DNA from: an uncultured Opitutaceae bacterium
GTDB taxonomy: Bacteria; Verrucomicrobiota; Verrucomicrobiia; Opitutales; Opitutaceae
Direction: 5' to 3'
Assembly (NCBI GenBank): GCA_937902925.1
Contig: CALFNN010000070.1
Span: forward strand, 62,001-126,000
Length of the DNA stretch: 64,000 bases
The notes beneath the pieces were generated by a model that saw nothing but the letters and a program-made list of their open reading frames with translations, made no database searches and was not told where the DNA came from. The translations under genes and the position numbers were made by a program. Below, piece after piece: positions 5,540 to 54,841 of the stretch (the stretch's first letter is position 1; the number at the start of each line of letters is the position of its first letter).

Positions 5540-6393
5540 AAACCCACCGCAACCTCACCCTTGTCATTGCGACTGTCGCCGTGGCCCTGTTCATCGACGC
5601 AACGGCGGAAAGATTCCAGACGAACCGAATCGACGCTTCGATCGCGAAAGCGAATCGCGAGACGACTTTGCTCCGACAAAGGATCGATCGAGCAAAGAGA
5701 CATATCGCCGCTTCCTCGACAAGCGTTTCACCGCAATCATTCATAGCCATCCGCGGTCCACAGGAAATTCATCCCACGGGTAACTCGCCAGTCGCCTTCG
5801 AGACTCCCGAAGCTCAAATCCTTCGCAGTCGCAGGATCCGTGCGGACATCGACCTGAAATACCGCGCGGTTTTTACCAAGCTCGGATGGTCACCGGATCA
5901 GAGAGACCGGTGGAAAGAGGCGATTGTAAGATATTGGGAAAACAAAGGCGATGTCGTTGCCGCAGCGGGAAACCACGGGCTGGCGACCGCAAATCCCGGG
6001 ATCAAACAAATGGTCGCGTCTGAACAACGCCAACTGCGCGACCAGTTGATCGCACAAGTCGGGGCCGACGAATATGCAAAACTCAACGAACTCGATCGCT
6101 CCCAGCCGACGAGGGATTTCGTCACCCAGGTGGCGGGACGGGTCTTCGCCTCCGACGCGCCACTCACCGCCGCGCAGGGCGAGGCGCTGGCGCAGATTCT
6201 CGTCGATGCCAGTCCGGAGTTTCAACGGGGCCAGCGCGCGAATCTGGCGACCGAGGACTGGGATGCCGTTGCGCTTCGCATGCAACCGCTGCTCTCCGCC
6301 GGGCAATTTGCCGCTGTGCAGGGAGAGAGAGCCGATCTCGAGGCCAAGGCCCAGCTACAGCAGCTGGTCTCAAGTCTGCCGCTGTCGCCGTGA
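5536..6393 (+). CDS. Membrane-anchored protein of unknown function, downstream of sigma remnant
   Basis: A 285-residue protein starting at the ATG that overlaps the upstream TGA (ATGA). Residues ~7-24 (LTLVIATVAVALFIDA) form one N-terminal membrane segment or uncleaved signal. A helical, charged region follows, with a coiled-coil-like stretch at ~30-55 (SIAKANRETTLLRQRIDRAK). The rest is mostly alpha-helical with repeated LTAAQGEAL and LLSAGQFAAV style segments. No catalytic motif is visible. In Verrucomicrobiota, proteins of this type often sit directly after an ECF sigma gene; here that sigma gene is broken, so the protein may have lost its regulator or may itself be decaying. An in-frame start further upstream at 5440 would run through the remnant and is less likely. 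Confidence 0.7.
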   Translation: MKTHRNLTLVIATVAVALFIDATAERFQTNRIDASIAKANRETTLLRQRIDRAKRHIAASSTSVSPQSFIAIRGPQEIHPTGNSPVAFETPEAQILRSRRIRADIDLKYRAVFTKLGWSPDQRDRWKEAIVRYWENKGDVVAAAGNHGLATANPGIKQMVASEQRQLRDQLIAQVGADEYAKLNELDRSQPTRDFVTQVAGRVFASDAPLTAAQGEALAQILVDASPEFQRGQRANLATEDWDAVALRMQPLLSAGQFAAVQGERADLEAKAQLQQLVSSLPLSP

Positions 6394-39411: not shown

Positions 39412-40161
39412 CTACGGACTGGTTTTTACCCGACCGGGGACAGGATTGGCGGCGAGACGGGAACGAACCGCTTGAAACTCCGCTTTGGCCTTCTCCAGAT
39501 TCCCGCGAAATTCCGGGTTGGCGTTCAGGCGCGTGAGGATGGCCCGCCCCAGGGTTCGCGCCGCCTCCACGTCGCTCGGGAAATGAACGCCTCCCTCCAC
39601 GCGGTCATCGCCGATCTGTTCCCCGCGCCGGCGGAGCGGCTCCTTCAGATCGGGTGCCAGCTCGCCGAGCACGGTTGCGAGCACGAGGCCGTAGGCTCCG
39701 TGTCCACTGGGATACGATGAACTCGTGGGCAATCCCACCGACGGATGGACCCGTTGGTCCTCGGCGGGGGGGCGCGGACGGTTCCACTTCTTCTTGGCGG
39801 CTTCGCAGACGTCCATCGTGTCGCGGCCCACGGCGTCGAGAAACGAAATCGTTACCGGCAGGTTTTGCCCGGTGAACCAGGCGCCCAGGACATCGTCGAA
39901 AAGCAGAGGGGACCATTTCCCCTCCCGATCGATGCGCGCCTCGTCGGCCGGGGTGCGGGTCGCTTGCCGTTCGAGGACGAGACCGATCTCGTCGCGGGTT
40001 TTCTCCGAGCCGGGTGCCGGCGGGCTGCCGAGGATTTGCCCGAGGTTGAAGTCGCCTGGTCGGATGAAATGAAGGCGCGGCTCGGCGGCCAAGGCCGTGC
40101 CGGCGGCGAGGGCGAGGGCGAGGGCGCACCAGGCGCTCAGGCGAAGGAGGCGAGATTTCAT
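39412..40161 (-). CDS. Class A nonspecific acid phosphatase (PAP2 superfamily)
   Basis: A 249-residue periplasmic phosphatase. The signal peptide ends at AGTALA. The three PAP2 motifs are in order: KKKWNRPRP, the YPSGHGAYG motif with catalytic His, and DRVEGGVHFPSD with the second His and the Asp. The Ser usually found at the start of the third motif is Asp here. It should release phosphate from a broad range of monoesters outside the cytoplasm. The start overlaps the stop of the GH38 alpha-mannosidase by 4 nt, so both are made from the LacI-controlled transcript. That pairing suggests phosphorylated mannose residues as substrates. Confidence 0.88.
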   Translation of the reverse strand: MKSRLLRLSAWCALALALAAGTALAAEPRLHFIRPGDFNLGQILGSPPAPGSEKTRDEIGLVLERQATRTPADEARIDREGKWSPLLFDDVLGAWFTGQNLPVTISFLDAVGRDTMDVCEAAKKKWNRPRPPAEDQRVHPSVGLPTSSSYPSGHGAYGLVLATVLGELAPDLKEPLRRRGEQIGDDRVEGGVHFPSDVEAARTLGRAILTRLNANPEFRGNLEKAKAEFQAVRSRLAANPVPGRVKTSP

Positions 40162-42668
40162 GGGAGTTGTTCCGGGACTGCCCGCTGGGATCGCGGCCCG
40201 CTCCCGGACGAAGGCGGGGTTTCCTCGGCGAGGTTCACCGGCGAAGCGGTCCAGTGGTCGCCGGCTGGAATGAGCCGCCAGGATGTGATTTGCCCCGGCA
40301 GACCGCGGCCCAGGTCAAGGGAATGCCCGAGCCAGACCAGGCGCAGGGGAACCGGTTTCGCAGCGACCAGCTGCACCCGAAGGATCCAGCCGGAGCCGCT
40401 GGTCGCCGGTTTGATCGCCAGCAGCCGGACCCCGGCCGGCAGACGCAGCAAGGAACCCGTGCCGCCCCCTTGACCATCGTGCGGATGCGTCGGGAGCGCA
40501 TGAACGGGCTGTTCGAGGAAGGCCGCGAGGCGCCACGGATCGAGATCGCCCGCTCCGATGGAGAACTGGAACCGATGCTCGCCCAGATCGAGATACGGGT
40601 GCCACGGCTCGCGATCGGGCCGCGAGGAGGCGTTCCACGCGTAACGCGTCGAGCGCACCACGGTCGCCCGCAGTGCGCCCGCCTTCGTGTCGAAATTGTA
40701 GAGCGCATCGCTGGCGAAGAGCCACGAGCGGGCGCGGTCCGTGACCCGCACCCATCGGCCGCCCGGCACCTCGCCGCACGGCCCGCGGTGGACCGTGCCG
40801 CCCGGCACCTCGTATTCGGCGCGGTCCCCGCCGGCCATGAGCAGTTTCAGGCGGGCGCCGCGTTCGTTCCAGAGCAGGCGTGCGGTTACCCGGACGCTCC
40901 GCGCCTCGCGCTCGAGATGGAATGTGAGATCCAGCCGCGATCGTCCCGCCTCTAATTGGACCCATAACGCGGCGCGGAGCGGGCCGCGCTCGAGCAGCCG
41001 GGTGCGCCGCACCGTCCACCGCGCCCGCTGGGTGGAAATATCGTCGCCTCCACCCTCCTGGTCGTGATCGCCCCACGAACCGAAGGGATCGGCAAACGTG
41101 CCCGCCTGCAGGCCGCTTCGTCCGAAGAGCGGGCGGCCGTCGAGCGTGACGCGGACGCCGTGTCGTCCGGGGCGGGCTGTGACCGTGAATGCGCCATTGC
41201 GAATAGTGTGGTCCCCCACGGCCGTGACTGGATTGCCCACGCGCGGGGCTGCGGGCGCGCCCTCCTCCCAGGCGAGCCGGACCACTTTCCAGCCCAGTGG
41301 CGGAATTTCGACGGGCACGACGACGCGTTTGCGCCACGGCACCTCGGGCGAGAAATGATTTTCCACTGCGACCGGCTGGAACGGCAGCGCGCGCCCGCGA
41401 TGGTCGCGCACGGTGACGGGCACGTCGTCGGGGCGGTCGCGGTAAGCGGCGATCGGGCGGTAGTCCAGGGCGGCCTCGACCTCGACGCAGCCGGTGAAGG
41501 GCTCCGGTTGCGGATTCCACAACAAGACCGGCACCGCACCCGGTTGGTCGCCGGCCGGGGCCGGCACCCGGGTGTCGAGGGTCGCGGCCAGGGCATTGAG
41601 CGCGGTCAGCCGCGCACCCTGGGCGTGGTGGCTTGCGACCCCCAGCCACGCCTGCTGGTCGTCGTAGGCGCGCTCGATCGAACTGCCCGGGAGAATATCG
41701 TGAAACGTATTGAAGAGCAGCGAGGCCCACGCCTCGCCGAGGTCCGGCGCCGCGGTGCCGGTCGCGGCGGAGACGGCACTCGCGGTTCGCTCCGCTTCGA
41801 GCAGCAGGTTTTCCGTCCGGCGGTAGGCGAACTTGAAGCGCGCGGCGCTCGCGTAGCAGCCCCGTAGCGTAAAATTCAACTCGCGGTCGACCTCGGGGAG
41901 GTGGGCGGCTTCCTCGTGCAACGCGGCAAAAAAACGGTGGAGCGTGGAAAACTCGGTCCGCACGTCGCCGTGGCGTTCGCGCCATTGGAGAATTTCGTTG
42001 ATTTGGCGCCGGGTGGGCCCGCCTCCGTGATTGCCGAGCCCGAAGAAGACCGCGACGTTGCGGACGCCCCACGCCGAGGCCTGCGCGAGGTAGGCATCGA
42101 GTCGTGCCGCCACTTCGCCCCGGTTCGCCCCATACCAGCCGAGCGGAATGCGCCAGCAGAGGATGCGCCGGCCGCCCGGGCTGCGCCACCAGAAGGCCGG
42201 CCCCGGCAGCGGACACTCCCGCTCGAACGGCCGGGAAAAGGCGAACGACGTCATGCCGGCCGCGGCATAGATTTCCGGCCAGCCCCGGCTGTGACCGAAC
42301 GAGTCGGCCGCCCAAGCCGCCGTGGGCCGCACCCCGAGCGCGCGCGCGCAGTAGTCGAGCCCGACCGAAAAATGCCGGCACAGCACCTCGGTCGCGGGCA
42401 GATTGGTGTCCGGCTGGCACACCGTGCCGCCCACGACATCCCAGCGCCCGCGGGCAATCTGCTCGCGGATCCTCGCGAAGGTCGCCGGATCGTGCCGGGC
42501 GATGTGCGCATAGAGCGAGGTCTCGCCGCGCAGGTAGGTGAGCTCGGGAAACTCCTCCATGAGCGCGAGCACGGTGCGGCAGGTCGTGATGCCTTCATTG
42601 AGGCCTTCGCGCCAGTCCCACAGCCAGACCGGATCGAGATGAGAGTTGGCGAGCAGGTGCAGGTGCAT
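40158..42668 (-). CDS. GH38 alpha-mannosidase
   Basis: An 836-residue glycoside hydrolase. The N-terminal catalytic domain opens with the zinc-binding ANSHLDPVWLWDW. The nucleophile Asp is in WAADSFGHSRG, and LLFNTFHDILPGSSI carries further active-site His/Asp. Residues ~270-400 are the helical domain, and beta-sandwich domains complete the C-terminus. It should remove terminal alpha-mannose residues in retaining mode. No signal peptide is seen, so it is probably cytoplasmic, like other bacterial GH38 enzymes that finish imported oligosaccharides. The start at 42668 puts the first motif at residue 7; longer frames run through the lacI gene. A LacI-type operator lies ~100 bp upstream. Confidence 0.93.
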   Translation of the reverse strand: MHLHLLANSHLDPVWLWDWREGLNEGITTCRTVLALMEEFPELTYLRGETSLYAHIARHDPATFARIREQIARGRWDVVGGTVCQPDTNLPATEVLCRHFSVGLDYCARALGVRPTAAWAADSFGHSRGWPEIYAAAGMTSFAFSRPFERECPLPGPAFWWRSPGGRRILCWRIPLGWYGANRGEVAARLDAYLAQASAWGVRNVAVFFGLGNHGGGPTRRQINEILQWRERHGDVRTEFSTLHRFFAALHEEAAHLPEVDRELNFTLRGCYASAARFKFAYRRTENLLLEAERTASAVSAATGTAAPDLGEAWASLLFNTFHDILPGSSIERAYDDQQAWLGVASHHAQGARLTALNALAATLDTRVPAPAGDQPGAVPVLLWNPQPEPFTGCVEVEAALDYRPIAAYRDRPDDVPVTVRDHRGRALPFQPVAVENHFSPEVPWRKRVVVPVEIPPLGWKVVRLAWEEGAPAAPRVGNPVTAVGDHTIRNGAFTVTARPGRHGVRVTLDGRPLFGRSGLQAGTFADPFGSWGDHDQEGGGDDISTQRARWTVRRTRLLERGPLRAALWVQLEAGRSRLDLTFHLEREARSVRVTARLLWNERGARLKLLMAGGDRAEYEVPGGTVHRGPCGEVPGGRWVRVTDRARSWLFASDALYNFDTKAGALRATVVRSTRYAWNASSRPDREPWHPYLDLGEHRFQFSIGAGDLDPWRLAAFLEQPVHALPTHPHDGQGGGTGSLLRLPAGVRLLAIKPATSGSGWILRVQLVAAKPVPLRLVWLGHSLDLGRGLPGQITSWRLIPAGDHWTASPVNLAEETPPSSGSGPRSQRAVPEQLP

Positions 42669-42764
42669 CGGGGAGTGGGCGATGGCCCGTCGTCCGCGAC
42701 GACGACCGGCCGAATCAGTCGGGCCAAGGTCTCGCCGCACTCCCGGCGGATGTAAATGAAAAAG

Positions 42765-42776
42765 TGAAACGTTTAA
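42765..42776 (-). promoter_or_regulatory. LacI-type operator in front of GH38 gene
   Basis: On the minus strand TTAAACGTTTCA, one of four matching near-palindromes in this locus. It lies 97 bp upstream of the GH38 start, in the 137-nt gap after the lacI-type gene. Confidence 0.7.
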
Positions 42777-42805
42777 CTTAAAACGAGCCTGGCCACGCCC
42801 GGCCT

Positions 42806-43828
42806 CTAACCCGGGCGGGTGGAGACGGAACTGCGCTCGATCAACTGGACCGCCACGCGCGCCTTGCTCACGGGCAAATCCGGGTGCTCGATCCGGCGGC
42901 GGATGATTTCGGCGCCGTTGCGGCCGAGTTCCGCCTTGTCGACGCCGACGGTCGTCAGGGCCGGGACGCAGTCCCGCGCATAGGTGTCGTCGTCGTAGCC
43001 GACAAAGCTCACCTCGCCGGGCACCGCGAACCCCGCGGCGCGCACGCCTTGCACCATGAAGACGGCCATCGTGTCGTTCACGCAGACCACGGCCGTCGGG
43101 GGCGCCGCCGCCTGCAGGCGTTTCAGCAGGATCGGCAGCCCGTCCCGGTCGCGGGTGAAGTTGCGCATGACGCTGCCCTTGGTCGGCAGACCGTGGTCCT
43201 TCAGGGCGGCGAGAAAGCCCCGCGTCCGCATGTCGATGTTGTAGTCCTCGAGGTCGTAGGCGAGCATCACGATCCGCCGGTGCCCGCGTTGATGGAGGTG
43301 CTCGACGACGCGCCGGCCGGCGCTGAACCCGTCCGTCGTGATGCTGTCGATCGGCAGGTCCTCGAGATTGCTGTCGAGGAGCAGGAGCGGCGTCCCCAGG
43401 CGGCTGAGGCGTTCGATCAGCTTGAAGGGAAACGCCCCCAGCAGGATGGCCGCATCCACCCGCCGCTGGGCGAGGAGCGACATCGGACGGGCCTCGTCGC
43501 GGGAAAAATCGCTGCCGCACAACAGGAGATCGTAGCCGGCCTGGCCCAGGTGGCGCTCCAGGCTCTCCATGATTTCCGCATAGAAGACATTGCGGAACAG
43601 TTGCGCGCAGGACGGATAGAAATACAGGCCGATCGTGTTGGTGCGCCGGGTCCGGAGGTTGCGGCCGGCGAGATTGGGGACGTAGCCGAGGCGCGCCGCC
43701 GTCTTGACCACCCGTTTTTTCGTCGCCTCCGACACCTTGCCGCGGCCGTTGAGCACCAGCGAAATCGTGGCGATGGAGCAGCCGCAGGCGCGGGCGACAT
43801 CGGTGATGGTGATGCGTTTCGTTTCCAA
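42806..43828 (-). CDS. LacI family transcriptional regulator
   Basis: A 340-residue repressor/activator. The N-terminal helix-turn-helix with hinge reads TITDVARACGCSIATISLVL, then NGRGKVSEATKKRV and GYVPNLAGRNLR. Residues ~60-340 are the periplasmic-binding-protein-like sensor (TNTIGLYFYPS, VVCVNDTMAVFMVQGV, VSFVGYDDDTYA). It likely senses a sugar released by the locus. Four copies of a TTAAACGTTT(T/C)A palindrome with the central CG typical of LacI operators lie nearby, one between this gene and the divergent TonB receptor. That position also permits autoregulation. Confidence 0.93.
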   Translation of the reverse strand: METKRITITDVARACGCSIATISLVLNGRGKVSEATKKRVVKTAARLGYVPNLAGRNLRTRRTNTIGLYFYPSCAQLFRNVFYAEIMESLERHLGQAGYDLLLCGSDFSRDEARPMSLLAQRRVDAAILLGAFPFKLIERLSRLGTPLLLLDSNLEDLPIDSITTDGFSAGRRVVEHLHQRGHRRIVMLAYDLEDYNIDMRTRGFLAALKDHGLPTKGSVMRNFTRDRDGLPILLKRLQAAAPPTAVVCVNDTMAVFMVQGVRAAGFAVPGEVSFVGYDDDTYARDCVPALTTVGVDKAELGRNGAEIIRRRIEHPDLPVSKARVAVQLIERSSVSTRPG

Positions 43829-43926
43829 GGTCCGTCGCTTGTAGCGAAACGCGGCGGCGCCGCAAGCGAGACGCGCGGGGCGCGGAATGTGTTGACATCC
43901 CGGCGCAGGTTACAATTGGGTTTCAG

Positions 43927-43938
43927 TTAAACGTTTTA
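43927..43938. promoter_or_regulatory. LacI-type operator between regulator and TonB receptor genes
   Basis: TTAAACGTTTTA within AGTTAAACGTTTTAGTTGA, 67 bp before the receptor ATG and 98 bp before the divergent lacI start. A -35-like TTGACA lies upstream at 43892, so a bound repressor would block polymerase leaving that promoter. Confidence 0.75.
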
Positions 43939-44004
43939 GTTGACCCCGCGCGCCGCCACCCCAATGCCTCGCGCCTCTCCGAGCAATCCAACCCTCCCAG
44001 TCCC

Positions 44005-46812
44005 ATGAATCCGACGTTCCCCCGCCTCTGCGCGATCGCCCTCGCCGTGATCGCTCGCCCGCTGGCCGCCCAAACCGCCGTCCCGGCGCCGCCCACGCCG
44101 CCGGAGACCATCGAGCTTTCGCCGTTTGTGATCCAGGGCGAGTCGGACACCGGCTACGCGCCGACCGAGACGCTCTCGGGCACCCGCCTGCGGACGCAGA
44201 CGCGCGATGTCGCCTCGGCCCTGACGATCGTCACGCCGGAATTCCTGCACGACGTGGGGGCGTTCAATTTCAACGATGTCCTCGACTATCTCCCGAGCAC
44301 GTCGACGTTCCAGAACAACGAGGGCGACCAGTTCAACAACGGTGCCCGCACGGGCACGCCGTTCACGGTGCGCGGGTATCGTTCCGATTCGCTGTCCACG
44401 GATTTTTTCTCCGCCCTGACGCCGGTCGATTCCTACAACACGTCGCGTTTCACGTTCAGTCGCGGGCCGAACTCGATCCTCTTCGGGGTCGGCAATCCCG
44501 GCGGCATGCTCGACGTGACCACAAACAAGCCGAACTTGGGCAGGGACGCCGCGAAAATCGAATTGCGCGCCGACAGTTTCGACAGCTTCCGCTCCGCGCT
44601 GGATGCCGATGTCACCCTGATCCCGCAGAAACTGGGCCTCCGCTTCGACGCGGTGCATGACGACCGGGGCAGCAACCTGAAACCGTCGGAAAACCGCCGC
44701 GATTCGGCCTACCTCGCCGCGCGCTGGCGGCCGGATCGCTTCACGACGATCGACGTCAACGGTGAAGCCTCGCAGTTTCGCCAGCAGATTCCCCGCTCGG
44801 TCGTGGCGTTCGACTGGTATAATACATGGGTTGCGGCGGGTTCGCCGCTTGTCGCCAAGGCCGCCACGACCACGCCCATCAACGGCGTCGAATTCCAAGT
44901 GACAAACGGCTATCCGGTTTACATCCCGGGCGTCGGCGCGTTCGATTGGTCGCGTTCGGGTCTCGGGGCGCGCCCGCTAGTTAATGGCGCGCGTGATGCG
45001 CAGGTGAGCTTCGGCGTGAGTTCGCCCGTCAGGCCGATCAGCTTCGATACCTACGCTGCCGGTGACGGCGATCACGTTCATCTCAACAACCAGAACGTTT
45101 CTGTCGTCGTGCAACGGCGGCTCGCCGAAGGCCTCAACCTGGAAATCGGCGGTAAGTTCGAGAACTCACTCCGCGAAAACTGGGAGAGTCAGGGCACGGG
45201 CGCCGACAACGCCGTCAAAGTTGATGTCAACAGCCAACTCCCGAACGGGCAGCCCAACCCAAACGTCGGCCTGCCCTACGTCGAGCAGACCGCCAATTAC
45301 ACGAAACTCGCCAACACCGAGGAGCAGGTGCGCGCGACGCTGTCCTACGAAAAAGATTTTTCCTCGATGAAGGTGTTTAACCGTGGCCTCGGCAAGTTCA
45401 CGCTCGCCGGCCTCTACAACAACGACGCCCTCCACAACTATAACGACAACTTCCGGCAGGTGAACGAAACGCCGCTCACGATCGCCGGCACCGATCTCAG
45501 CAATGCGCGCAACCTGATCCGCCGCCGTTCGTATCTCACGGGCAGCAACCACTACTTCACGTCGGACTTCGCCCTCTTCGACCAGAATGGCATCCGCGCC
45601 GGCTGGGAGCCGGTCAACACGCCGCGCAATAATTTTACCCGCACCAAGTCGTATGCGCTCGCGGGCCAGGCCATTCTGCTCGATCACCTCCTGGCGATCA
45701 CCGGCGGCCTGCGGCGCGACGAGGCGCTCGTCGGCCAGTATAACTTCACGAAGGACGCGCGCGGGCTCTTCACTGCCGGCGGTTCGCACGGCGGCACGCC
45801 CGCCCCCGATATCAATTCGGTGGGCCGGCCCTATCTCATTGGCGCCGTCCTCAACGCCATGCCGAACGTCAGCCTCTTCGCCAACCGTTCGACCGATTTC
45901 CAGCCCGTCAACCAGTCGTTCCGCCTGATCACGGGTGAACCGCTGCCGGCGGTGCGCGGCCGCGGCTTCGACGGCGGCGCGAAGTTCTTCTTATTTGGCG
46001 ACAAGATTTCTGGTTCGCTCGATTACTTCGAGACCCAGCAGACGAACGTCCGCGATTCCACCGTCAACAGCGCCCACATGGTCAGCTGGATCACCGCCAT
46101 CTGGGACGCCGTCGACGCGACCCAAGTGCCCGACACCGGGTGGACCGACACGAAACAATCGAAGACGCACGGCATCGAATTCCAGCTTGTCGCCAACCCG
46201 ACCAAGAACCTCCGCCTGCTGGCCAATGTCAGCCGGGACGTCAATGTCCTCCAGGCGCACGGCGCGACGACCTACGCCTATCTCGCCGCCAACATTCCGA
46301 CGTGGCTGACCCACGCCTCGACTCCGGTTTCAAGCCCGGACGGCGCGACCGTCGGCGCGCTCGTCGCGAAACTGCAGCAAGAGCAAAGCGATCAACAGCA
46401 GGTCGTCGGCATCGAGCAGACCCGCGTCTTCGAGTGGCAGGCGAATGTCGTCGGGCGCTACCAACTCGACGACGTCTTGCCCGTGAAAGGTTTCGCGGCG
46501 GGCGCCGCGTTCCGCTGGCGCAACGCCCCCACGATCGGTTTCGCCCGCACCGGCACGCTCCTCGATCCAACGCGGCCGTTCGCCGGCCGGGCGTTTACCA
46601 ATCTCGACGCCTGGGTCGAATATGGCCGCACTTTTACGGTGCGGGAAAGAAAAGTGCGCTGGTCGGTGGAAGTGCGGGTGCAAAACCTCCTCGACGACCG
46701 CGGCCTCCAGCCGTGGACGGCGAGCGACGACGGCAGTGGGCACCCGTTTATCGAGACGCGGCGGACGCCGGGCGAGCGCCAGTTTAGTCTGAGTTCGACC
46801 TTTGCGCTCTAA
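44005..46812 (+). CDS. TonB-dependent receptor
   Basis: A 935-residue outer-membrane transporter. A signal peptide is followed by IELSPFVIQGESDTGYAPTE, an N-terminal run typical of Opitutaceae receptors. The plug domain spans ~60-180 (DVASALTIVTPEFLHD, then FTVRGYRSD, then RGPNSILFGVGNPGG). The rest is a 22-strand barrel ending in FSLSSTFAL with a terminal aromatic/aliphatic strand. No SusD partner is found nearby, as is usual in this phylum. With an alpha-mannosidase and a LacI operator beside it, import of a mannose-containing oligosaccharide is the likely role. Confidence 0.92.
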   Translation: MNPTFPRLCAIALAVIARPLAAQTAVPAPPTPPETIELSPFVIQGESDTGYAPTETLSGTRLRTQTRDVASALTIVTPEFLHDVGAFNFNDVLDYLPSTSTFQNNEGDQFNNGARTGTPFTVRGYRSDSLSTDFFSALTPVDSYNTSRFTFSRGPNSILFGVGNPGGMLDVTTNKPNLGRDAAKIELRADSFDSFRSALDADVTLIPQKLGLRFDAVHDDRGSNLKPSENRRDSAYLAARWRPDRFTTIDVNGEASQFRQQIPRSVVAFDWYNTWVAAGSPLVAKAATTTPINGVEFQVTNGYPVYIPGVGAFDWSRSGLGARPLVNGARDAQVSFGVSSPVRPISFDTYAAGDGDHVHLNNQNVSVVVQRRLAEGLNLEIGGKFENSLRENWESQGTGADNAVKVDVNSQLPNGQPNPNVGLPYVEQTANYTKLANTEEQVRATLSYEKDFSSMKVFNRGLGKFTLAGLYNNDALHNYNDNFRQVNETPLTIAGTDLSNARNLIRRRSYLTGSNHYFTSDFALFDQNGIRAGWEPVNTPRNNFTRTKSYALAGQAILLDHLLAITGGLRRDEALVGQYNFTKDARGLFTAGGSHGGTPAPDINSVGRPYLIGAVLNAMPNVSLFANRSTDFQPVNQSFRLITGEPLPAVRGRGFDGGAKFFLFGDKISGSLDYFETQQTNVRDSTVNSAHMVSWITAIWDAVDATQVPDTGWTDTKQSKTHGIEFQLVANPTKNLRLLANVSRDVNVLQAHGATTYAYLAANIPTWLTHASTPVSSPDGATVGALVAKLQQEQSDQQQVVGIEQTRVFEWQANVVGRYQLDDVLPVKGFAAGAAFRWRNAPTIGFARTGTLLDPTRPFAGRAFTNLDAWVEYGRTFTVRERKVRWSVEVRVQNLLDDRGLQPWTASDDGSGHPFIETRRTPGERQFSLSSTFAL

Positions 46813-46893
46813 CCCACGACGCCGCGGCAGGCCGCGCTCCGGGCCCGCCGGCGAGTCTGGCGCTCGGGGCCGGTTTTTGCCTCTTTTCACCCT

Positions 46894-48870
46894 ATGAACA
46901 GCCTCGGTGTCACGGACACCGCCATCATCGTTGGTTACTTCGTCATCACTCTCGTGGTCGGCGTCGTGATGACGCGGCGGGCGAGCCGGGGACTGCAGGA
47001 ATATTTTTTGGCCGGCCGGTCGCTGCCGTGGTATCTGCTCGGAATCGCCGGGATGGCGAACTGGTTCGACCTGGCCGGCACGATGATCATCACCTCGTTC
47101 CTCTACCTGCTCGGACCGCGCGGGCTCTTCATCGAGTTTCGCGGCGGAGCGGTGCTCGTGCTGGCGTTCCTCATTGCCTACACCGGCAAATGGCACCGCC
47201 GGTCCGGCTGCATGACGAGCGCCGAGTGGGTGACCTACCGTTTCGGCAGCGATCGCGCGGCGGCGTGGATGCGCCTGCTCACCGCGCTCATGTCGGTCAT
47301 CACCACGGTTGCCCTGCTCGCCTACCTCGTCCGCGGCACGAGTCTTTTCGTCGGCCTCTTTGTCCCTTATCCGCCGGTCCTGGTGACCGCCGTCCTCCTC
47401 GGCATCTCCGCGATCTACACGATGCTCTCGGGGTTCTACGGCGTGGTGCTGACGGACCTGGTGCAGGGTTTGATCATTCTCGTCGCGTGCGGGGTCGTGT
47501 CGTTCATGGCGTTTCAGGCCGCGCCGGACGCGGCCGCGCTCACGACGCTCGCGGCGAACGTGACCGGCAACACGCAGTGGGGCGACAGCCTGCCGCAATG
47601 GCACACGACGATGCCCCGCGGCTACGAGATGTATGAGTCGCTCGTCATGGTCGCCGGCTTCTACCTTCTGCGCAACGTCCTGTGGGGCCTGGGCACCGGC
47701 GGCGAGAACCGCTATTTCGGCGCCCGCAGCGACCGCGATTGCGGTCTCCAGTCGCTGCTGCAGGGCGTGACGATCACCTTCCGCTGGCCGATGATGATCG
47801 GGTTCGCGGTGCTCGGGCTCCTCCTCGTCCATCGGTTCTTCCCGGAGGCGGGCGCGGTCGAGCGCTCGGCGGCGATCATCCACCAGCACTTTCCCGACCT
47901 GCAGGCCGCCAACTGGCACGACCGCACGAGCGACCTCGTCAATCACCCGCAGGCCTATCCGGTCGCGGTCGTCAGCGAACTCGAGCAGACGCTCGGCCCG
48001 GCATGGCGGCAGAAGCTCCCGCTCGTCGGCATCAATGGCACCGTGAACCCGGAGCAGATCCTGCCCGCGGTGATGCTTAATAGTCTGCCGGTCGGCGTCC
48101 GCGGTTTCCTCCTTGTGGCCATGCTGGCCGCCATGATGTCGACCCTCACTGGGACTGTGAACCAGACGACGTCGCTCATGGTGTGCGACGTCTATCAAAA
48201 CCGCCTGCGCCCTGCGGCCGGCAACCGCGAGCTCATCGCGTCGTCCTACGTCTCGACGCTGTTGCTCGTCGGCGCGGGTTTTTGGATGGGCATCTCCGCC
48301 GGCACCATCAACGAACTCTGGGGCTGGATCATCATGGGCTTGGGCGGCGGCTCGCTGGCCCCCTACATCCTGCGGCTTTACTGGTGGCGGTGCAACGCCT
48401 GGGGGGTCGTCGGCGGCACGATCGTCGGCGGAGTCGGTGCGGTGGTCCAGCGCGTCGCCGCCCCGGAAATGATCGAGTGGAAGCAATTCGTCCTGATGAG
48501 CGCCCTGTCGTTCGCCGGCACCATCGGCTGTTCGCTGATGACGGCGCCGACGGACCCGGGCACGCTGAAGAAATTCTACCGCTCCACGCGGCCCTTCGGC
48601 TGGTGGCGTCCGCTTTCGAGCGAACTGACCACGGCCGAGCGCGCCGCGTGGTCGGCGGAGCACCGCAACGACATCCTGGCCCTGCCGTTCCTGCTCGTCG
48701 CGCAAGTCACGGCCTTTCTCCTCCCGATGCAGCTCGTCATCCACGCCTACCATTCGGCCGCGGCGACCCTGCCGGTGTTTCTGGCCGCGGCGGCGGGCGT
48801 CTACTGGTTTTGGTGGCGCGCCCTCCCGCCGGCGAGCGATCCCGGCACGGCGACGGCCCGCGACTCGTGA
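46894..48870 (+). CDS. Sodium/solute symporter (SSS family)
   Basis: A 658-residue inner-membrane transporter with about 13-14 helices. The SSS fold is seen in the early helices (TAIIVGYFVITLVVGVVMTR, then GRSLPWYLLGIAGMANWFDL) and in GVVLTDLVQGLIIL. The sodium-site region is LLVAMLAAMMSTLTGTVNQ, where family members have the conserved Ser/Thr ligands. It lies 81 nt after the TonB receptor on the same strand and so probably carries the periplasmic product of that receptor into the cytoplasm, where the GH38 enzyme acts. The sugar is unproven. Confidence 0.9.
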   Translation: MNSLGVTDTAIIVGYFVITLVVGVVMTRRASRGLQEYFLAGRSLPWYLLGIAGMANWFDLAGTMIITSFLYLLGPRGLFIEFRGGAVLVLAFLIAYTGKWHRRSGCMTSAEWVTYRFGSDRAAAWMRLLTALMSVITTVALLAYLVRGTSLFVGLFVPYPPVLVTAVLLGISAIYTMLSGFYGVVLTDLVQGLIILVACGVVSFMAFQAAPDAAALTTLAANVTGNTQWGDSLPQWHTTMPRGYEMYESLVMVAGFYLLRNVLWGLGTGGENRYFGARSDRDCGLQSLLQGVTITFRWPMMIGFAVLGLLLVHRFFPEAGAVERSAAIIHQHFPDLQAANWHDRTSDLVNHPQAYPVAVVSELEQTLGPAWRQKLPLVGINGTVNPEQILPAVMLNSLPVGVRGFLLVAMLAAMMSTLTGTVNQTTSLMVCDVYQNRLRPAAGNRELIASSYVSTLLLVGAGFWMGISAGTINELWGWIIMGLGGGSLAPYILRLYWWRCNAWGVVGGTIVGGVGAVVQRVAAPEMIEWKQFVLMSALSFAGTIGCSLMTAPTDPGTLKKFYRSTRPFGWWRPLSSELTTAERAAWSAEHRNDILALPFLLVAQVTAFLLPMQLVIHAYHSAAATLPVFLAAAAGVYWFWWRALPPASDPGTATARDS

Positions 48871-48877
48871 CGGGCGT

Positions 48878-49717
48878 TTAGTCCCGCTCGGACTTGAACT
48901 CGAATGTCGGTTCGCCGCCCGGCGGAATCGTGACAAGCGTCCAGCCCTGGGGGGCGATTCCGAGCGGCAGACCGAACGACACCGGCGGAGTCGTGACCAA
49001 GGGGATGCCGGCGTAGTGGTTCACCAGTTGATAGTGCAGGTGTCCGGTCAGGACCGCGGCCACGCCGCCGCGCTTCAGCAGCGCCAGCAACCGCGCGCGC
49101 GGCGCTGGCTCGATATTCCAATAATCGCCTCCCGGCTCGTCGGCGGATTTCACGAACGGCGGCATGTGCATGAAGACGAGCGCCGGGGTTCCTCCGGGTG
49201 CCGCGAGCTGCTGCTCGAGCAGGGTCCACATTTTCTCCTCTTCCGGCAAACCGCTTCCGAACAACTGGGAGTCGATCGCGAGGAGCCGCACGCCGCGCAC
49301 CGGCTGCACGTAGAAATCCCGGCCCATGGTCTGGACGTAGCGGGCGAGCCGCGCCGGGGCCGGTCCGGCCTGCTTGTCCGGAATGCGTTTCGGACCGATG
49401 TCGTGGTTCCCCGGCACCCAGTAGACGGGGGCGTGAAACCCGCGCACCTGGGCCTTGAAGTCGTCGAATTCCTCGGGCTTGCCGTTCTGCGTGAGATCGC
49501 CCGCCACCACGACGACGTCGACCCCCGCGGCATTCACGGCCGCGATGACGCGGTCGAATCGACCGCGATACATCGGCTGATCGTCCTTGGTCCCGCGGGT
49601 CGTGTGCGTGTCGGACACGAGGGCCAGACGGAGCGGGGGCGCCGGTTCGGCCGCGGTCCCGGCGGCCGGCACGGTCAGGCCGCAGACGGAAATCAGGAGC
49701 AGGGAAAGGCGGGTCAT
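48878..49717 (-). CDS. Exported calcineurin-like metallophosphoesterase
   Basis: A 279-residue exported phosphoesterase with a signal peptide (LLLISVCGLTVPAAGTAA). All five metal-binding motifs are intact: LVSDTHTT (D-x-H), VVAGDLTQNG, PGNHDIG, FMHMPP and TGHLHYQ. It should hydrolyse phosphomono- or diesters with a two-metal centre. It is convergent with the symporter gene (7-nt gap). A LacI-type operator lies ~120 bp upstream, so it belongs to the same regulon as the acid phosphatase. It could split mannosyl-phosphate diester links before the acid phosphatase removes the phosphate. Confidence 0.9.
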   Translation of the reverse strand: MTRLSLLLISVCGLTVPAAGTAAEPAPPLRLALVSDTHTTRGTKDDQPMYRGRFDRVIAAVNAAGVDVVVVAGDLTQNGKPEEFDDFKAQVRGFHAPVYWVPGNHDIGPKRIPDKQAGPAPARLARYVQTMGRDFYVQPVRGVRLLAIDSQLFGSGLPEEEKMWTLLEQQLAAPGGTPALVFMHMPPFVKSADEPGGDYWNIEPAPRARLLALLKRGGVAAVLTGHLHYQLVNHYAGIPLVTTPPVSFGLPLGIAPQGWTLVTIPPGGEPTFEFKSERD

Positions 49718-49837
49718 GGCGTGAGAGGGGTGGCGGATCGGCGGTGGAAACGGGCGTGGTCGGTTTGGCCCCGCGGGAAGGCAGCGACGAGGGTCGGTCG
49801 GGGATCAGACGCCGGCGCCTTTCCGGGCGCAAGAAAA

Positions 49838-49849
49838 TTAAACGTTTTA
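49838..49849. promoter_or_regulatory. LacI-type operator upstream of metallophosphoesterase gene
   Basis: TTAAACGTTTTA within AATTAAACGTTTTAGTTAC, 121 bp upstream of the phosphoesterase start in the 392-nt divergent region. Confidence 0.75.
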
Positions 49850-49898
49850 GTTACAAGTGCGTGACAAATGGCCGCGGCGGACTCTGCCCGGGACGATG

Positions 49899-49985
49899 GC
49901 CGGTTGTAACCGGCGCCCGGCGCGTATTTTTCACTCTCAAGCGGAGCGCATGCCACGAACCGGCTAGGGATTTTCCTCGCCGGTT
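49899..49985. other. Repeated AACCGGC/GCCGGTT heptamers in divergent control region
   Basis: Between the two LacI-type operators of this gap lie two inverted repeats made of the same heptamer: GCCGGTT-GT-AACCGGC (49899-49914) and AACCGGC-N14-GCCGGTT (49958-49985). The rest of the 392-nt gap shows no coding potential. They may bind a second regulator or form hairpins in the leader. Confidence 0.45.
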
Positions 49986-50001
49986 TATTAGGGTGATAAA
50001 G

Positions 50002-50013
50002 TTAAACGTTTTA
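50002..50013. promoter_or_regulatory. LacI-type operator upstream of beta-helix operon
   Basis: TTAAACGTTTTA within GTTAAACGTTTTAATTGA, 97 bp upstream of the first beta-helix gene start and 164 bp from the operator serving the divergent phosphoesterase gene. Confidence 0.75.
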
Positions 50014-50109
50014 ATTGAAAACCCGAAAACTTTTTCTTCAATGCCGGCGTTTCGTTTTCCCGCCGGCGTTCGCGCCGGCCAACCCAGAACCCTCCAGAAG
50101 GAGTCCGCC

Positions 50110-51531
50110 ATGTCCCACGCTCTATCGCAGACTGGTCCGCTCGGCGCCTGTGCGCGCCTGTTCGCCATCGTTGTGGTCGCCGCCGCTTTCACCGGCCGCG
50201 CCATCGCCGTCGAGGAAACCCTCGTCGTCGCCTCGTCCACCACGAGCCGCTCCGCCAGCGCCGACTACGTGTGCGACGGCTCGGCCGACGACGTGGAAAT
50301 CCAGAGTGCCGTGAACGCCTTGCCGGCCGCCGGCGGCACGGTCTACCTCACGGACGGCATCTTCAACCTGAGTGCGAACATCGACCTCGGGAACAAGACC
50401 GGCGTGAAGCTTTTGGGCGCGGGTCCGGGCACGATTCTGAAAATGGCCAGTGGTGCCAATGCGAGCGCCATTCGCGGCGGCACCGTGCTGAATATCACGC
50501 TCGCCGACTTCTCCATCGACGGCAACAACGCCAACAACACGTCGGGCAAGGGCCTGCAGTTCCTGACGAGCACCGGCAAGGGGGTCAAAGCCGAGCGACT
50601 TTACATTTACGACTGCGTCGACGCCGCGATCGGGCTCACGTGCGACGAGGTCAGCATCCTCAACTGCGAGTTGCACGACTGCGGGGCGGGGGTGCAGATC
50701 AACTCCGGCGCCGAGAAGTGCTACGTGATCGGTTCCCGCATCTACAATGTCGCCCTCCTCGCCGGGCAGTTGTCGGACGGCATCTCGTGCCAGGGCGCCC
50801 GGTGCCGCTTCGAGGCGAACGTCATCTGGAACAACTCGGACACCGGCATCAACATCGCCAGCGCCACCAACGAGGGCCGCAATGTCGCGATCGGCAACGA
50901 AATCTACCTCAACGGCAACAGCGGCATCAACACCGGCGGCGCCGACCACGATGTCATCATGGGCAACATCTGCTACGCCAACGGGCGCAAGACCGCGACC
51001 CCGCGCTCGAACGCCGGCATCTACGTCCGCGACCGCACCGACGGCACCCAAACCTCGGAGGACTGCGTGATCGTCGGCAACCGTTGCTACGAGGACACGA
51101 CGGATTTCCCGCTGCCGACCGGCGCCGTCGGCCAGCTCTACGGGCTCGCCCTGCACAAGAACACCGGCTCCGCGCCGCTGAACAATATCGCGATGGGCAA
51201 CGATTTTCGCGGCAACCTCACGAGCGGCATCTTCCGCGAGAATGTCGGCACGGGTAATGTGCTGCAGGAGAACCTCGGCGACACGACCTACGCCAACGGC
51301 ACCGCCACGATCACCAGCGCGGCGACCAGCGTCGTCGTGACGCACGGCCTCACCAGCACGCCGACGGTGGCGGGCATCTCGGTGACGCCCACGAGCAATC
51401 TCACCAGCGCGACCAAGTTCTGGGTCAGCAATGTCACGGCCACCCAGTTCACGATCAACGTCAACGTCGCGCCCGGCGCGAGCGTTTCGTTCTCGTGGCA
51501 GGCCCAGGTCTACACGGAACCCACCATTTGA
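50110..51531 (+). CDS. Secreted right-handed beta-helix protein, copy 1
   Basis: A 473-residue exported protein with a signal peptide (LFAIVVVAAAFTGRAIA). An opening module has SASADYVCDGSADDVEIQSA, the 'DG-xDDx-xIQxA' start seen in phage tailspike and pectate-lyase-type helices. The helix runs over ~60-400 with many Asn/Gly/Cys turns (ISCQGARCRFEANVIW; MGNICYANGRK). A small C-terminal domain (VVVTHGLTSTPTVAGISVTP, then SATKFWVSNVTATQFTI) closes it. Several paired Cys could form disulfides. AGAAGGAG precedes the ATG. No catalytic residues can be assigned. It is first in a three-gene set under a LacI-type operator and has a tandem duplicate 21 nt downstream. Confidence 0.85.
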   Translation: MSHALSQTGPLGACARLFAIVVVAAAFTGRAIAVEETLVVASSTTSRSASADYVCDGSADDVEIQSAVNALPAAGGTVYLTDGIFNLSANIDLGNKTGVKLLGAGPGTILKMASGANASAIRGGTVLNITLADFSIDGNNANNTSGKGLQFLTSTGKGVKAERLYIYDCVDAAIGLTCDEVSILNCELHDCGAGVQINSGAEKCYVIGSRIYNVALLAGQLSDGISCQGARCRFEANVIWNNSDTGINIASATNEGRNVAIGNEIYLNGNSGINTGGADHDVIMGNICYANGRKTATPRSNAGIYVRDRTDGTQTSEDCVIVGNRCYEDTTDFPLPTGAVGQLYGLALHKNTGSAPLNNIAMGNDFRGNLTSGIFRENVGTGNVLQENLGDTTYANGTATITSAATSVVVTHGLTSTPTVAGISVTPTSNLTSATKFWVSNVTATQFTINVNVAPGASVSFSWQAQVYTEPTI

Positions 51532-51552
51532 ACCATCGGCCCCTTTTCTTCC

Positions 51553-52968
51553 ATGAGCATACTCTCTCTGGCACCGGGCCGGCTCCGGCCTCGCCCGCTG
51601 CCCTTCGCCCTCGCTTTGCTCGGCCTCGCGCTCGCAACCTCCGCCGCCGCGGTCGAGTCCGTGATCGTCGTCGCCTCGTCCACCACCTCACGGTCCGCCA
51701 GCGCCGACTACGTCTGCGATGGCACGGCCGATGACGTGCAAATCCAGCAGGCGATCGACGCGCTGCCTGCGACAGGCGGCACCGTCTTCCTCACCGACGG
51801 CACGTTCAACCTGAGCGCGGTGATCGACCTCGGTAACAAGATCCATACGAAGCTGGTCGGCGCCGGCCCCGGCACGATTCTCAAGATCGCGAACGGCGCG
51901 AATGTGAGCGCCCTGCGCGGCCTCGAGGCCTTCGACGTCACGTTCGCCGATTTCGCGGTCGACGGGAACAACGCCAACAACACCACCGGCAACGGCGTCC
52001 AGTTTCTCGACTCGGGCGGTGCCGGGCTGAAGCTGGAACGGCTCTACCTCTACAACCTGGCCGAGGCCGCGGTCACGGTTTCCGCCGACGAGGTCAGCAT
52101 CCTCAACTGCGAGATCCACGACTGCGGCAAGGGCATCCTGATCAACGACGACGCCGAGAAGTGCTACGTGATCGGCTCGCGCATCCACCAGATCGGGAAG
52201 GGCACGGGCCAGAGCGCCAGCGGCCTTTCCTGCCAGGGCGCGCGGTGCCACTTCGAAGACAACGTCGTCTGGGATGTCTCCGACGCGGGCATCACGCTCA
52301 GCAGCGGCGACAACTTCGGGCACAACGTCGCGATCGGAAACGAAGTCTACCTCGCGGGCAACAGCGGCATCAACAGCGGCGGCGCCGACCATGTCGTGAT
52401 CATGGGCAACACGTGCTACGCGAACGGCCGCAATACCTCGACGCCGCGCTCCAACGCGGGCATTTACCTCCGCGACAATCTCGCGGGCACGCACACGTCG
52501 TCCGATGCGATCGTCATCGGCAACCGGTGCTTCGAGGACACGGCGAACTTCCCGCTGCCGGGGGGCGCCGACGGGCAGCTCTACGGCGTGCACGTTTCCC
52601 ACGACACCGGCAACTCGCCGCTGAACTCGATCGTGATGACCAACGACCTCCGCGGCAACACCACGGCGGGGATCTTCCGCGAGCACGTCGGCGCGGGAAA
52701 TATCTTCCAGAAGAATCTCGGCGACACGACCCTCGCGCTCGGCACGGCGACCCTCACCAGCGCCGCGACGGTCGTGACGGTCACCCACGGCCTCGACTCG
52801 CCCCCGACCTCGAAATGCATCTCGGTCACGCCCGCGAGCGATCTCGGCAGCGCGACGAAATTCTGGGTGAGCAACGTCACGGCGACGACCTTCGACATCA
52901 AGGTGAACACCGCGCCGGGCGCCAACCTGACGTTTGCCTGGAAAGCGCGTGTTTATACCGAACCCTGA
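51553..52968 (+). CDS. Secreted right-handed beta-helix protein, copy 2
   Basis: A 471-residue paralogue of the preceding gene, colinear along its whole length. It shares VVASSTTSRSASADYVCDG, DEVSILNCE-HDCG, EKCYVIGSRI, and the C-terminal SATKFWVSNVTAT domain. The signal peptide differs (FALALLGLALATSAAA). Conserved Cys positions are kept. Differences cluster in the middle coils, as expected if the two bind different sites of one glycan or work as a heteromer. It should be co-transcribed with copy 1. A hairpin follows 26 nt after its stop. Confidence 0.85.
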   Translation: MSILSLAPGRLRPRPLPFALALLGLALATSAAAVESVIVVASSTTSRSASADYVCDGTADDVQIQQAIDALPATGGTVFLTDGTFNLSAVIDLGNKIHTKLVGAGPGTILKIANGANVSALRGLEAFDVTFADFAVDGNNANNTTGNGVQFLDSGGAGLKLERLYLYNLAEAAVTVSADEVSILNCEIHDCGKGILINDDAEKCYVIGSRIHQIGKGTGQSASGLSCQGARCHFEDNVVWDVSDAGITLSSGDNFGHNVAIGNEVYLAGNSGINSGGADHVVIMGNTCYANGRNTSTPRSNAGIYLRDNLAGTHTSSDAIVIGNRCFEDTANFPLPGGADGQLYGVHVSHDTGNSPLNSIVMTNDLRGNTTAGIFREHVGAGNIFQKNLGDTTLALGTATLTSAATVVTVTHGLDSPPTSKCISVTPASDLGSATKFWVSNVTATTFDIKVNTAPGANLTFAWKARVYTEP

Positions 52969-52994
52969 TTCCCGCGGAGTTCGGTTGCGCAAAC

Positions 52995-53026
52995 CCTCGC
53001 CCGCCGCCCCGGGGCGGTGGGCGAGG
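52995..53026. other. Long GC-rich hairpin after second beta-helix gene
   Basis: A 16-bp stem with one mismatch and no loop (CCTCGCCCGCCGCCCC / GGGGCGGTGGGCGAGG). It is not followed by a T-run, so it may pause polymerase, protect mRNA ends or weaken read-through into the GH71/99-like gene. Confidence 0.55.
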
Positions 53027-53065
53027 CACTCGCTTTCTCCGGCTTCGCCCGGCACATTCTCCGCT

Positions 53066-54841
53066 GTGCGCCGCTCCCCTCTCGCGACTCTCTGCCTGAT
53101 CGCCAGCCTGGTGCCGGGAGCCCACGCCGTGGAATCCGGCGCGCGACCGGAGGTGCTCCATCCGACGCTCGAGCACACGGTGATGGTCGGATATCAGGGT
53201 TGGTTTCGCACGCCGTCCGACGGCGCCCACATGGGCTGGGCGCACTACGAGCAGGCCGGGACGAAAGATTTTTCTCCCGGCCACGCGGGCATCGATTTCT
53301 GGCCCGATGTCACCGACCTTCCCGCATCCGCGCGCGTTGCGACCTCTTTCGCCAACGCCGACGGCACGCCCGCGACCGTCTTCAGTTCGCATGATGCCGG
53401 CGTCGTCGACGTGCATTTCCGCTGGATGCAGGACTATGGGATCGACGGGGCCTTCGTGCAGCGTTTCGCCGAACCGATCGTCTTCGACAATGAAGCGTCG
53501 CGCACCCGGCTTCGTGCAACCGACGATGTCCTGCGGTTTGCGACGGCCGCGGCGGCGCGCCACGGTCGCTCGGTCGCCGTGATGTATGACCTGTCCGGGC
53601 TGCCGGCGAACGCGATCGGTCGCGTGCTGCAGGATTGGCGGCATGTCGTCGACGATCTCAAGGTGCGCCAAAGCCCGGCGTATCAGTATCACCGCGGCCG
53701 GCCGGTGGTGGCGGTCTGGGGCGTCGGGTTCGACGACGGCCGGGCTTACACGCTCGACGAGGTTTCGGCGCTGATCGCGTTCCTCAAGGACGATCCAGTC
53801 TACGGCGGCAACACCGTCATGCTGGGCATCCCCACGTGGTGGCGCGAGCAGACGGCCGATGCGATCGCCGATTCCAGGCTGCACGCCGTCCTGCAAAAAG
53901 CGGACATCCTGTCGCCGTGGGCGCCGGGTCGTTACGACGACATGGGCGGCGTCGAGGCCCACGCCGAGCGATTCTGGGCGCCGGACCGCGCATGGTGCAC
54001 GGCGCACGGCCTCGACTATCTGCCCGTGGTGTTCCCGGGCTTCAGCTGGCGAAACCTCAAGGGCGCACACGGAGGGATCAGCCGCGACGACGGGCGTTTC
54101 CTGTGGGCCCAATACCGCGCGTTGGCGAACCGTGGCTTCACCATGGTCTACCAGGCGATGTTCGACGAGATGGACGAGGGCACCCAGATTTTCAAAACCT
54201 CCGCCAAGCCACCCCCGGGAACGTTTTTCGCCAGCTACGATCCGTTGCCGCCCGATCACTATCTGTGGCTGGTCGGGGCGGCGGCCGGCTACCTGCGAAC
54301 CGGGCGCCGGATGCCGGAATCGATCGATGATCGGCCCAATTTCGGCGCCGCAAATCGATATCTTCGCCGCGGCGATCGCGTCGCCTACGACGCCGTCCCG
54401 GAACTGGCGGAAGCTCATCGCCGCTTCTTCCAGATCGGCGATGCCCTGACGGCTGGCGCTACCGGCCGGGTCCCGCTCGCAGGAAGTGACGCGCATGTTT
54501 CTGTGACAGGAGATTGGTTTCCGCGCCATCTTTGGTCGACCGACGCCAGCGCCTCGGTCACGTGGGAACTTGACGTCCCCGCAGCGGGCAGCGTCTCGCT
54601 TAAAGTCCGCTATCCTGGCGATCCAAATCTGGATCATGCAACCGCGGCCCGGTTGCGGATCATCCAACGTGGCCTGGTCCTCGACGAACGCCGGATAAAC
54701 CTGCGGGAAAATTCATTGCGGTGGAACGAAATCGCGAAGCTGCAGTTGCAAGCCGGGAGCCCGTGCCAAGTCATCCTGGACCAAGGCGGAGCGTCCGGTT
54801 CGTTGGTGCTTTTTGAGCCGCAATTGCTGCCGGCGAAGTAA
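53066..54841 (+). CDS. GH71/99-like exported glycosidase
   Basis: A 591-residue exported enzyme-like protein. The GTG start at 53066 was chosen because it gives a compact signal peptide (RRSPLATLCLIASLVPGAHA); an ATG at 52934 would lie within the previous gene and read through a hairpin. Residues ~30-410 match the GH71/99-like group: MVGYQGWFRTPSDG, HFRWMQDYGIDGAFVQRF, VMYDLSGLPA, KPVVAVWG-type PVVAVWGVGF, VVFPGFSWRN and MFDEMDEGTQ with acidic residues at the strand end. The C-terminal ~110 residues form a beta-sandwich. GH99 enzymes are endo-alpha-mannosidases, which would suit the neighbouring GH38, but exact family membership is not settled. Confidence 0.75.
   Translation: MRRSPLATLCLIASLVPGAHAVESGARPEVLHPTLEHTVMVGYQGWFRTPSDGAHMGWAHYEQAGTKDFSPGHAGIDFWPDVTDLPASARVATSFANADGTPATVFSSHDAGVVDVHFRWMQDYGIDGAFVQRFAEPIVFDNEASRTRLRATDDVLRFATAAAARHGRSVAVMYDLSGLPANAIGRVLQDWRHVVDDLKVRQSPAYQYHRGRPVVAVWGVGFDDGRAYTLDEVSALIAFLKDDPVYGGNTVMLGIPTWWREQTADAIADSRLHAVLQKADILSPWAPGRYDDMGGVEAHAERFWAPDRAWCTAHGLDYLPVVFPGFSWRNLKGAHGGISRDDGRFLWAQYRALANRGFTMVYQAMFDEMDEGTQIFKTSAKPPPGTFFASYDPLPPDHYLWLVGAAAGYLRTGRRMPESIDDRPNFGAANRYLRRGDRVAYDAVPELAEAHRRFFQIGDALTAGATGRVPLAGSDAHVSVTGDWFPRHLWSTDASASVTWELDVPAAGSVSLKVRYPGDPNLDHATAARLRIIQRGLVLDERRINLRENSLRWNEIAKLQLQAGSPCQVILDQGGASGSLVLFEPQLLPAK

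Follow-up and report, generated by a model that had tools for sequence, protein, structure and literature searches.

A putative LacI-controlled α-mannoside regulon with two exported phosphatases in an Opitutaceae bacterium

Why would a bacterium place exported phosphatases of two families alongside an α-mannosidase? The question is raised by a block of genes at positions 39412–54841 of a 64 kb stretch of DNA (the window; contig CALFNN010000070.1, 62001–126000) from the 6.0-Mb draft genome of an uncultured Opitutaceae bacterium. An initial annotation had explained the pair as a diesterase and a monoesterase that strip phosphate from fungal or yeast mannan before a mannosidase of glycoside hydrolase family 38 (GH38) acts. 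The block was mapped by gene calling and Pfam profiles, with signal peptides judged by eye throughout, and all of the genes named in that annotation were found within it. That they form one LacI regulon for an α-mannoside is well supported. Whether its substrate bears phosphate esters for the two phosphatases to remove is, in our estimation, evenly balanced, and its identification with yeast-type phosphomannan in particular is doubtful. These gradings and those given below are our judgement and were not computed.

The case for a single regulon begins with a repeated palindrome that was noticed while reading the promoter regions of the block. A search with TTAAACGTTTNA, allowing at most one mismatch, gave eight strand-matches in the window, corresponding to four places, all of which are inside the block; the mean for shuffled sequences was 0.10 matches. 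The whole genome, searched exactly with two forms of the pattern and no mismatch, contains six places: the four of the block and two on contig C103. Each of the four promoter regions of the block carries one LacI-type operator (Table 1), and the block thus combines a lacI gene with common palindromic sites at its promoter regions, as is found in LacI-controlled sugar regulons. From these predicted sites the GH38–phosphatase pair, lacI, the receptor–symporter row, the metallophosphoesterase (MPE) and the row of β-helix and GH99-like genes look like one regulon. Because operators occupy the promoter regions of the block and recur elsewhere in the genome only in the C103 repeat, both phosphatases are assigned to it, and the linkage to LacI proposed previously is borne out. 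The operator at 49838 may also serve the first β-helix gene, and the site belonging to MPE may be either that one or the one at 50002. Promoter and terminator scans gave no excess over shuffled sequences.

The two C103 copies (L028:424–435 and 5758–5769) are perfect palindromes, TTAAACGTTTAA, and were excluded from the regulon because both lie within one repeated segment, which is at least 95% identical over ∼120 bases to the right of the palindrome. The repeat region is near a contig end and has a GC content of 55–61%, lower than usual; when its neighbours were compared with the genes of the window only, one GH28-like gene was found (at 9171).

The mannoside-active part of the block consists of two enzymes. 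GH38 contains the N-terminal, middle and C-terminal domains of its family with the catalytic and zinc residues, and its relatives in the PDB are α-mannosidases (7ufs, 4.5e-40; Ams1). The motifs HLD, DSFGH and FHDILPG are present. The protein begins MHLHLLANSHLD and is probably cytoplasmic, acting after uptake, because it has no visible signal peptide. A longer gene model for GH38, an open reading frame of 1246 residues at 40158–43898, was rejected because its first ∼400 codons cross lacI out of frame. The secreted enzyme, previously described as GH71/99-like, holds up as GH99-like: it keeps the EXXE catalytic carboxylate pair in the alignment (FDEMDEGT) and matches 4acz (5.3e-8), and the fold taken from its weak structural model (pLDDT 57.6) has GH99 endo-α-mannosidases at all PDB ranks 1–24 in Foldseek. 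It is a candidate endo-α-mannosidase, with a start codon that is probably GTG 53066; a golvesin-like stretch at its C-terminus (PF25275) scores 26.9 bits, under the Pfam cut-off of 31.6.

The PAP2-superfamily phosphatase (PAP2) is coupled to GH38 in the manner originally described, with the stop codon of GH38 (40158–40160) and the start codon of PAP2 (40161) sharing an ATGA. It combines a signal peptide with what we take to be the class A non-specific acid phosphatase signature, KX6RP–PSGH–(S)RX5HX3D; KX6RP, PSGH and RX5HX3D are kept and the Ser before the Arg is replaced by Asp. Its PDB relatives are acid phosphatases (7f17, 1.3e-27; 1d2t, 2.8e-21; PhoN 2ipb, 3.6e-16). MPE belongs to the calcineurin-like family and has the full two-metal ligand set of a GpdQ-like phosphoesterase (DTH, GD, GNHD, MH and GHLH intact). 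The closest PDB entries are 2zo9 (1e-12; also 2dxl) and Rv0805 (2hy1, 1.1e-11); the former we take to be GpdQ, a glycerophosphodiesterase, and all of them presumably cut diesters. The two proteins therefore fit a predicted diesterase-plus-monoesterase pair as far as their PDB relatives go, and the presence of two separate phosphatases in one mannosidase regulon stands as first proposed.

Table 1. Genes and predicted operators of the block, and MPE3 genes of related loci (handles denote fetched stretches of other genomes)
Feature	Position	Strand	Support or remark
PAP2-superfamily class A non-specific acid phosphatase	39412..40161	-	PF01569 5.7e-9; signal peptide
GH38 α-mannosidase, 836 residues	40158..42668	-	PF01074 3.3e-53, PF09261 3.8e-15, PF07748 5e-6
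LacI-type operator TTAAACGTTTCA	42765..42776	-	Between lacI and GH38, 97 bp before GH38
LacI-family regulator, TTG start	42806..43828	-	PF00356 4.5e-15, PF13377 1.7e-34
Operator TTAAACGTTTTA	43927..43938	+	Divergent lacI/TonB-receptor promoter region
TonB-dependent receptor	44005..46812	+	PF07715 2.3e-8
Sodium:solute symporter (SSS family)	46894..48870	+	PF00474 1.1e-30
Secreted calcineurin-like metallophosphoesterase (MPE)	48878..49717	-	PF00149 5.9e-19; signal peptide
Operator TTAAACGTTTTA	49838..49849	+	121 bp before MPE start
Operator TTAAACGTTTTA	50002..50013	+	97 bp before β-helix 1
Secreted right-handed β-helix protein 1, tailspike-like	50110..51531	+	PF13229 4.7e-9; start near 50110
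Secreted β-helix protein 2	51553..52968	+	PF13229 3.4e-9; start near 51553
Secreted GH99-like endo-α-mannosidase candidate	about 53066..54841	+	PF16317 1.3e-10
MPE3 genes	L149; L151:10173-11351; L152:10515-11693; L153; L048:12728-13900

The substrate class was approached through homologues in 200 genomes of the family, this one included. GH38 is found in 42 of them and LacI in three (both at E ≤ 1e-60), the GH99-like enzyme in 30 and MPE in seven (E ≤ 1e-20), the symporter in 18 and the TonB receptor in nine (E ≤ 1e-150), and PAP2 in 66 (E ≤ 1e-10). The best orthologous locus (WYBX01000045.1; L048, also L068) encodes a GH38, a LacI and a symporter that are 64, 65 and 67% identical, respectively, and keeps the operator, with the core AAACGTTT 91 bp before GH38; the same core lies 59 bp before GH38 in L079, which also has a close LacI. 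The recognition-helix region of LacI is nearly identical in the window, L048 and IMCC26134 and is less similar in L079. The locus of IMCC26134 (CP011265.1; G094), with LacI 60% and GH38 62–63% identical, spans about 25 kb (L148:1–14126, L069:10001–15766): lacI is ∼20 kb from an adjoining GH38 and GH99-like pair, between them are a second GH99-like gene, GH85, GH95 and three sulfatase-family genes, and a BNR protein is also encoded. Two AAACGTTT cores occur there within 1.2 kb of lacI, one 145 bp upstream of a row of sulfatase and GH99-like genes and the other 342 bp before lacI, within a doubtful small open reading frame. As a whole, this LacI-linked cluster resembles an N-glycan or sulfated mannoside locus.

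Other loci point the same way. In L077 a comparable symporter stands directly between GH38 and GH92, and in G028 a symporter 68% identical to that of the window adjoins a different GH38 (29% identical). Homologous loci thus join the same LacI or GH99-like enzymes to GH38, GH92, GH85 and sulfatases and, because such contexts recur in IMCC26134, L077 and G028, α-mannosides are the most likely substrate class.

By their annotation, phosphoesterase genes also adjoin α-mannoside genes elsewhere in the family, mostly alongside sulfatases. In L048 PAP2 is absent and two metallophosphoesterases are present instead: one is 30% identical to MPE and adjoins another TonB receptor, while the other is of a type here called MPE3 and overlaps the symporter gene by ATGA. 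MPE3 proteins are ∼390 residues in length with a twin-arginine-like leader and are 60–63% identical in the three compared; their genes adjoin that of a TonB receptor in four genomes, and in a fifth the partner is a symporter. MPE3 gave no NCBIfam match and no result in a single-sequence PDB search; a ThreeFoil-like assignment was rejected, as the profile match covers 27 residues only. Of the six non-self matches of MPE (the sixth being in G110, L167), five could be placed: those of G024 and G158 adjoin a TonB receptor, and those of G217, G180 and G146 are surrounded by GH99-like and sulfatase genes (with GH92 as well in G217). The G217 region (C60:30001–70000; L057, L058), a candidate sulfated-mannan locus, has four GH99-like and at least four sulfatase-family genes, together with GH92, a TonB receptor, a metallophosphoesterase and a gene of the endonuclease/phosphatase family.

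The relatives of the TonB receptor provide a further association. Neighbourhoods were compared for ten of its 11 non-self relatives (the cut 590-residue receptor of G165 was left out), and the five closest all have a metallophosphoesterase as a direct neighbour, MPE in G024 and MPE3 in G201:C295, G030, G025 and G179:C288 (the MPE3 genes of G201:C295 and G179:C288 are cut at contig ends). A rough yardstick is the motif density in 79 GH38 loci (L068 was left out on purpose), whose 1.36 Mb yields a single metallophosphoesterase with a motif that misses the MPE2 type; because of this low density, five direct neighbours in five look far above chance. Elsewhere, the relative in G073 sits between two sulfatase genes, the second receptor of a tandem pair in G201:C159 is followed by a sulfatase gene, the relative in G110 has a cytochrome peroxidase as one neighbour (the other being outside the scan) and that in G179:C78 has neither a metallophosphoesterase nor a sulfatase as a direct neighbour.

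We favour a reading in which one LacI-controlled regulon serves the uptake and breakdown of an α-mannoside glycan that bears phosphate esters, such as fungal mannan or a phosphorylated N-glycan, and we find about as much reason to believe it as to doubt it. The genes with their motifs and signal peptides, the operators, the ATGA overlap and the associations across genomes come from the sequences themselves, while the substrate, the order of steps, the localizations and the effector of LacI are what we infer in the following scheme. The secreted GH99-like enzyme, perhaps with the β-helix proteins, would cut the glycan extracellularly or in the periplasm and the TonB receptor would import fragments across the outer membrane. 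Exported MPE would open phosphodiesters (or cut monoesters), PAP2 would strip the remaining phosphate and the symporter would move the neutral mannoside inwards, where cytoplasmic GH38 would free mannose; the mannoside or mannose might then release LacI from the four operators. The initial phosphomannan interpretation survives in the single regulon, the α-mannoside enzymes and the two phosphatases, and is weakened by a GH38 that lacks a visible signal peptide and so probably works inside the cytoplasm on what has been taken up.

Several observations weigh against a phosphorylated substrate. Within 80 named GH38 loci, 41 of them at least 20 kb in length, in which PAP2 and metallophosphoesterases were the only families sought (by profile or motif), 78 have neither. 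The exceptions are L068, with phosphoesterase profile matches, and L078, where a motif match lies ∼4.6 kb beyond GH38; PAP2 is in none of the 80. Among the listed places, this genome alone has PAP2 (E ≤ 1e-10) at most 20 kb from GH38 (E ≤ 1e-60), and the next nearest pairs are ∼40 kb apart. The two metallophosphoesterases of L048 and the 78 loci without either kind thus divide the question of conservation, the latter being in part an outcome that the initial annotation had itself named as telling against it; on these comparisons, phosphatase recruitment belongs to two related loci and is not an invariable feature of the GH38 module. The profiles and the motif showed no phosphoesterase in the stretches fetched around eight further contigs that carry a symporter (L158–L166). 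In the receptor tree the window and G024 group together (100/100), as do the MPE3-associated receptors (100/100), and these are separate clades on an unresolved backbone. The five genomes with a receptor–phosphoesterase pair are all outside the 42 with GH38. No relative of β-helix protein 1 at E ≤ 1e-20 was found in the other 199 genomes searched, and the families of MPE and PAP2 are both broad.

The leading alternative is an ordinary α-mannan or N-glycan locus with an unphosphorylated substrate, in which the phosphatases only salvage phosphate from organic matter that occurs alongside or are chance recruits. We consider this possible, though clearly less probable than the phosphate-bearing substrate. 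It accounts readily for the 78 loci and for a PAP2 family that is widespread in these genomes, and in the PAP2 neighbourhoods scanned (L063–L065; 20 kb each, from three of the 65 other genomes with matches) none of nine neighbours is a glycoside hydrolase. It accounts less well for the operator ahead of MPE, for the ATGA overlap of PAP2 with GH38 and for the recurrence of phosphoesterases of other types in L048 and among the mannosidase and sulfatase genes of G217. An arrangement of two pathways under one regulator, with a receptor–phosphoesterase unit for some other phosphodiester beside a separate GH38–symporter unit for a mannoside, would explain why the receptor (80% identical) and MPE (59–62%) of G024 adjoin an arginyl-tRNA synthetase and a BrkB gene, with the nearest operator core about 6 kb away, and why four genomes pair the receptor with MPE3 while GH38 was not found in the fetched 5–18 kb. 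It is nevertheless unlikely: MPE3 itself is joined to the symporter in L048, a GH38/LacI locus, which links both units, and the receptor promoter in the block bears the same operator. Least probable of all, and very unlikely in our view, is a mannose-bearing phosphodiester lipid headgroup or anchor (GPI, glycosyl inositol phosphoceramide or phosphatidylinositol mannoside); a diesterase presumably of GpdQ type, as the closest relatives of MPE suggest, would fit such a substrate in combination with GH38, but the scan of the block's genes revealed no inositol, lipid or sphingoid enzyme, and IMCC26134 has GH85, of which the characterized members are N-glycan-active according to the excerpt of PMC10154615.

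To our knowledge, bacterial removal of mannan phosphate in the environment has been little described; the partial records retrieved in a literature search on the subject were off-topic, chiefly Candida or glycosylation reviews, which is no proof of absence in print. In fungal mannans phosphate links two mannoses, and Bacteroides thetaiotaomicron uses GH76, GH99, GH92 and GH38 on yeast mannan (excerpt of PMC10154615). A phosphatase within a mannan locus is already known and is not new here, because one is coloured in the maps of yeast-mannan loci (PMC7562712, legend to Fig. 7). The MAN-PULs of B. thetaiotaomicron and B. ovatus share with the block GH38, GH99-type enzymes, a phosphatase and SusC-type (TonB-dependent) uptake, at least in the available parts of these two papers, so that the contrast with Bacteroides drawn initially was overstated. 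What remains of it is that the scan of the block's genes shows no SusD-family protein, GH76 or GH92, the TonB receptor having no adjacent SusD partner. The block further differs in its LacI regulator, its sodium symporter and its GH38, in which a signal peptide is not visible, and in joining phosphatases of two families under one regulator, the Bacteroides phosphatase being taken from the map colouring.

Another parallel is the pathway for diatom sulfated α-1,3-mannan, in which, according to the excerpt of PMC13063451, two sulfatases are found with GH92 and GH195 (a distant GH99 relative). Its loci in Polaribacter and O. pacifica resemble the block in having a GH99-related endo enzyme, an exo-mannosidase and two ester-removing enzymes; in the block phosphatases replace the sulfatases and GH38 replaces GH92, and the GH99-like enzyme is likened to GH195 by description only. 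The IMCC26134 cluster is alike in LacI, GH38, GH99-like enzymes and the operator core and differs in its sulfatase-family, GH85 and GH95 genes, and in its two fetched stretches the profiles detected neither PAP2 nor a metallophosphoesterase. It is possible, though less likely than not, that these are modular loci of an Opitutaceae type, in which a common α-mannoside core (LacI, TonB receptor and GH38, GH92 or GH99-like enzymes) is combined with an ester-removing enzyme suited to the glycan. That enzyme would be a sulfatase in IMCC26134 and G217 and next to some relatives of the receptor, and a phosphoesterase here and in WYBX01000045.1. Such an exchange around a common core would make the ester of the glycan predictable from the locus. 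If this modular reading is true, the block would stand to phosphate as the sulfated-mannan pathway stands to sulfate. It would then be a phosphomannan system that works without SusD and lies outside Bacteroidota, and a single regulon would encode both steps of ester removal, first by a diesterase and then by a monoesterase. A regulon that joins phosphoester removal to mannoside cleavage also supplies two named enzymes for assay.

The two β-helix proteins are paralogues (65% identical). Protein 1 matches phrog_11699 (3.2e-10), and its model (mean pLDDT 62.5) has the Sf6 tailspike, 2vbm, as its top Foldseek match (1.7e-5). The proteins have one weak relative on a viral contig, and their N-terminal similarity to tail proteins of seven Streptomyces phages covers 22% of the query. 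Beyond the regulon, a GH28/pectate-lyase-like gene (57438–58991) lies near an AraC-family regulator (55775–56698).

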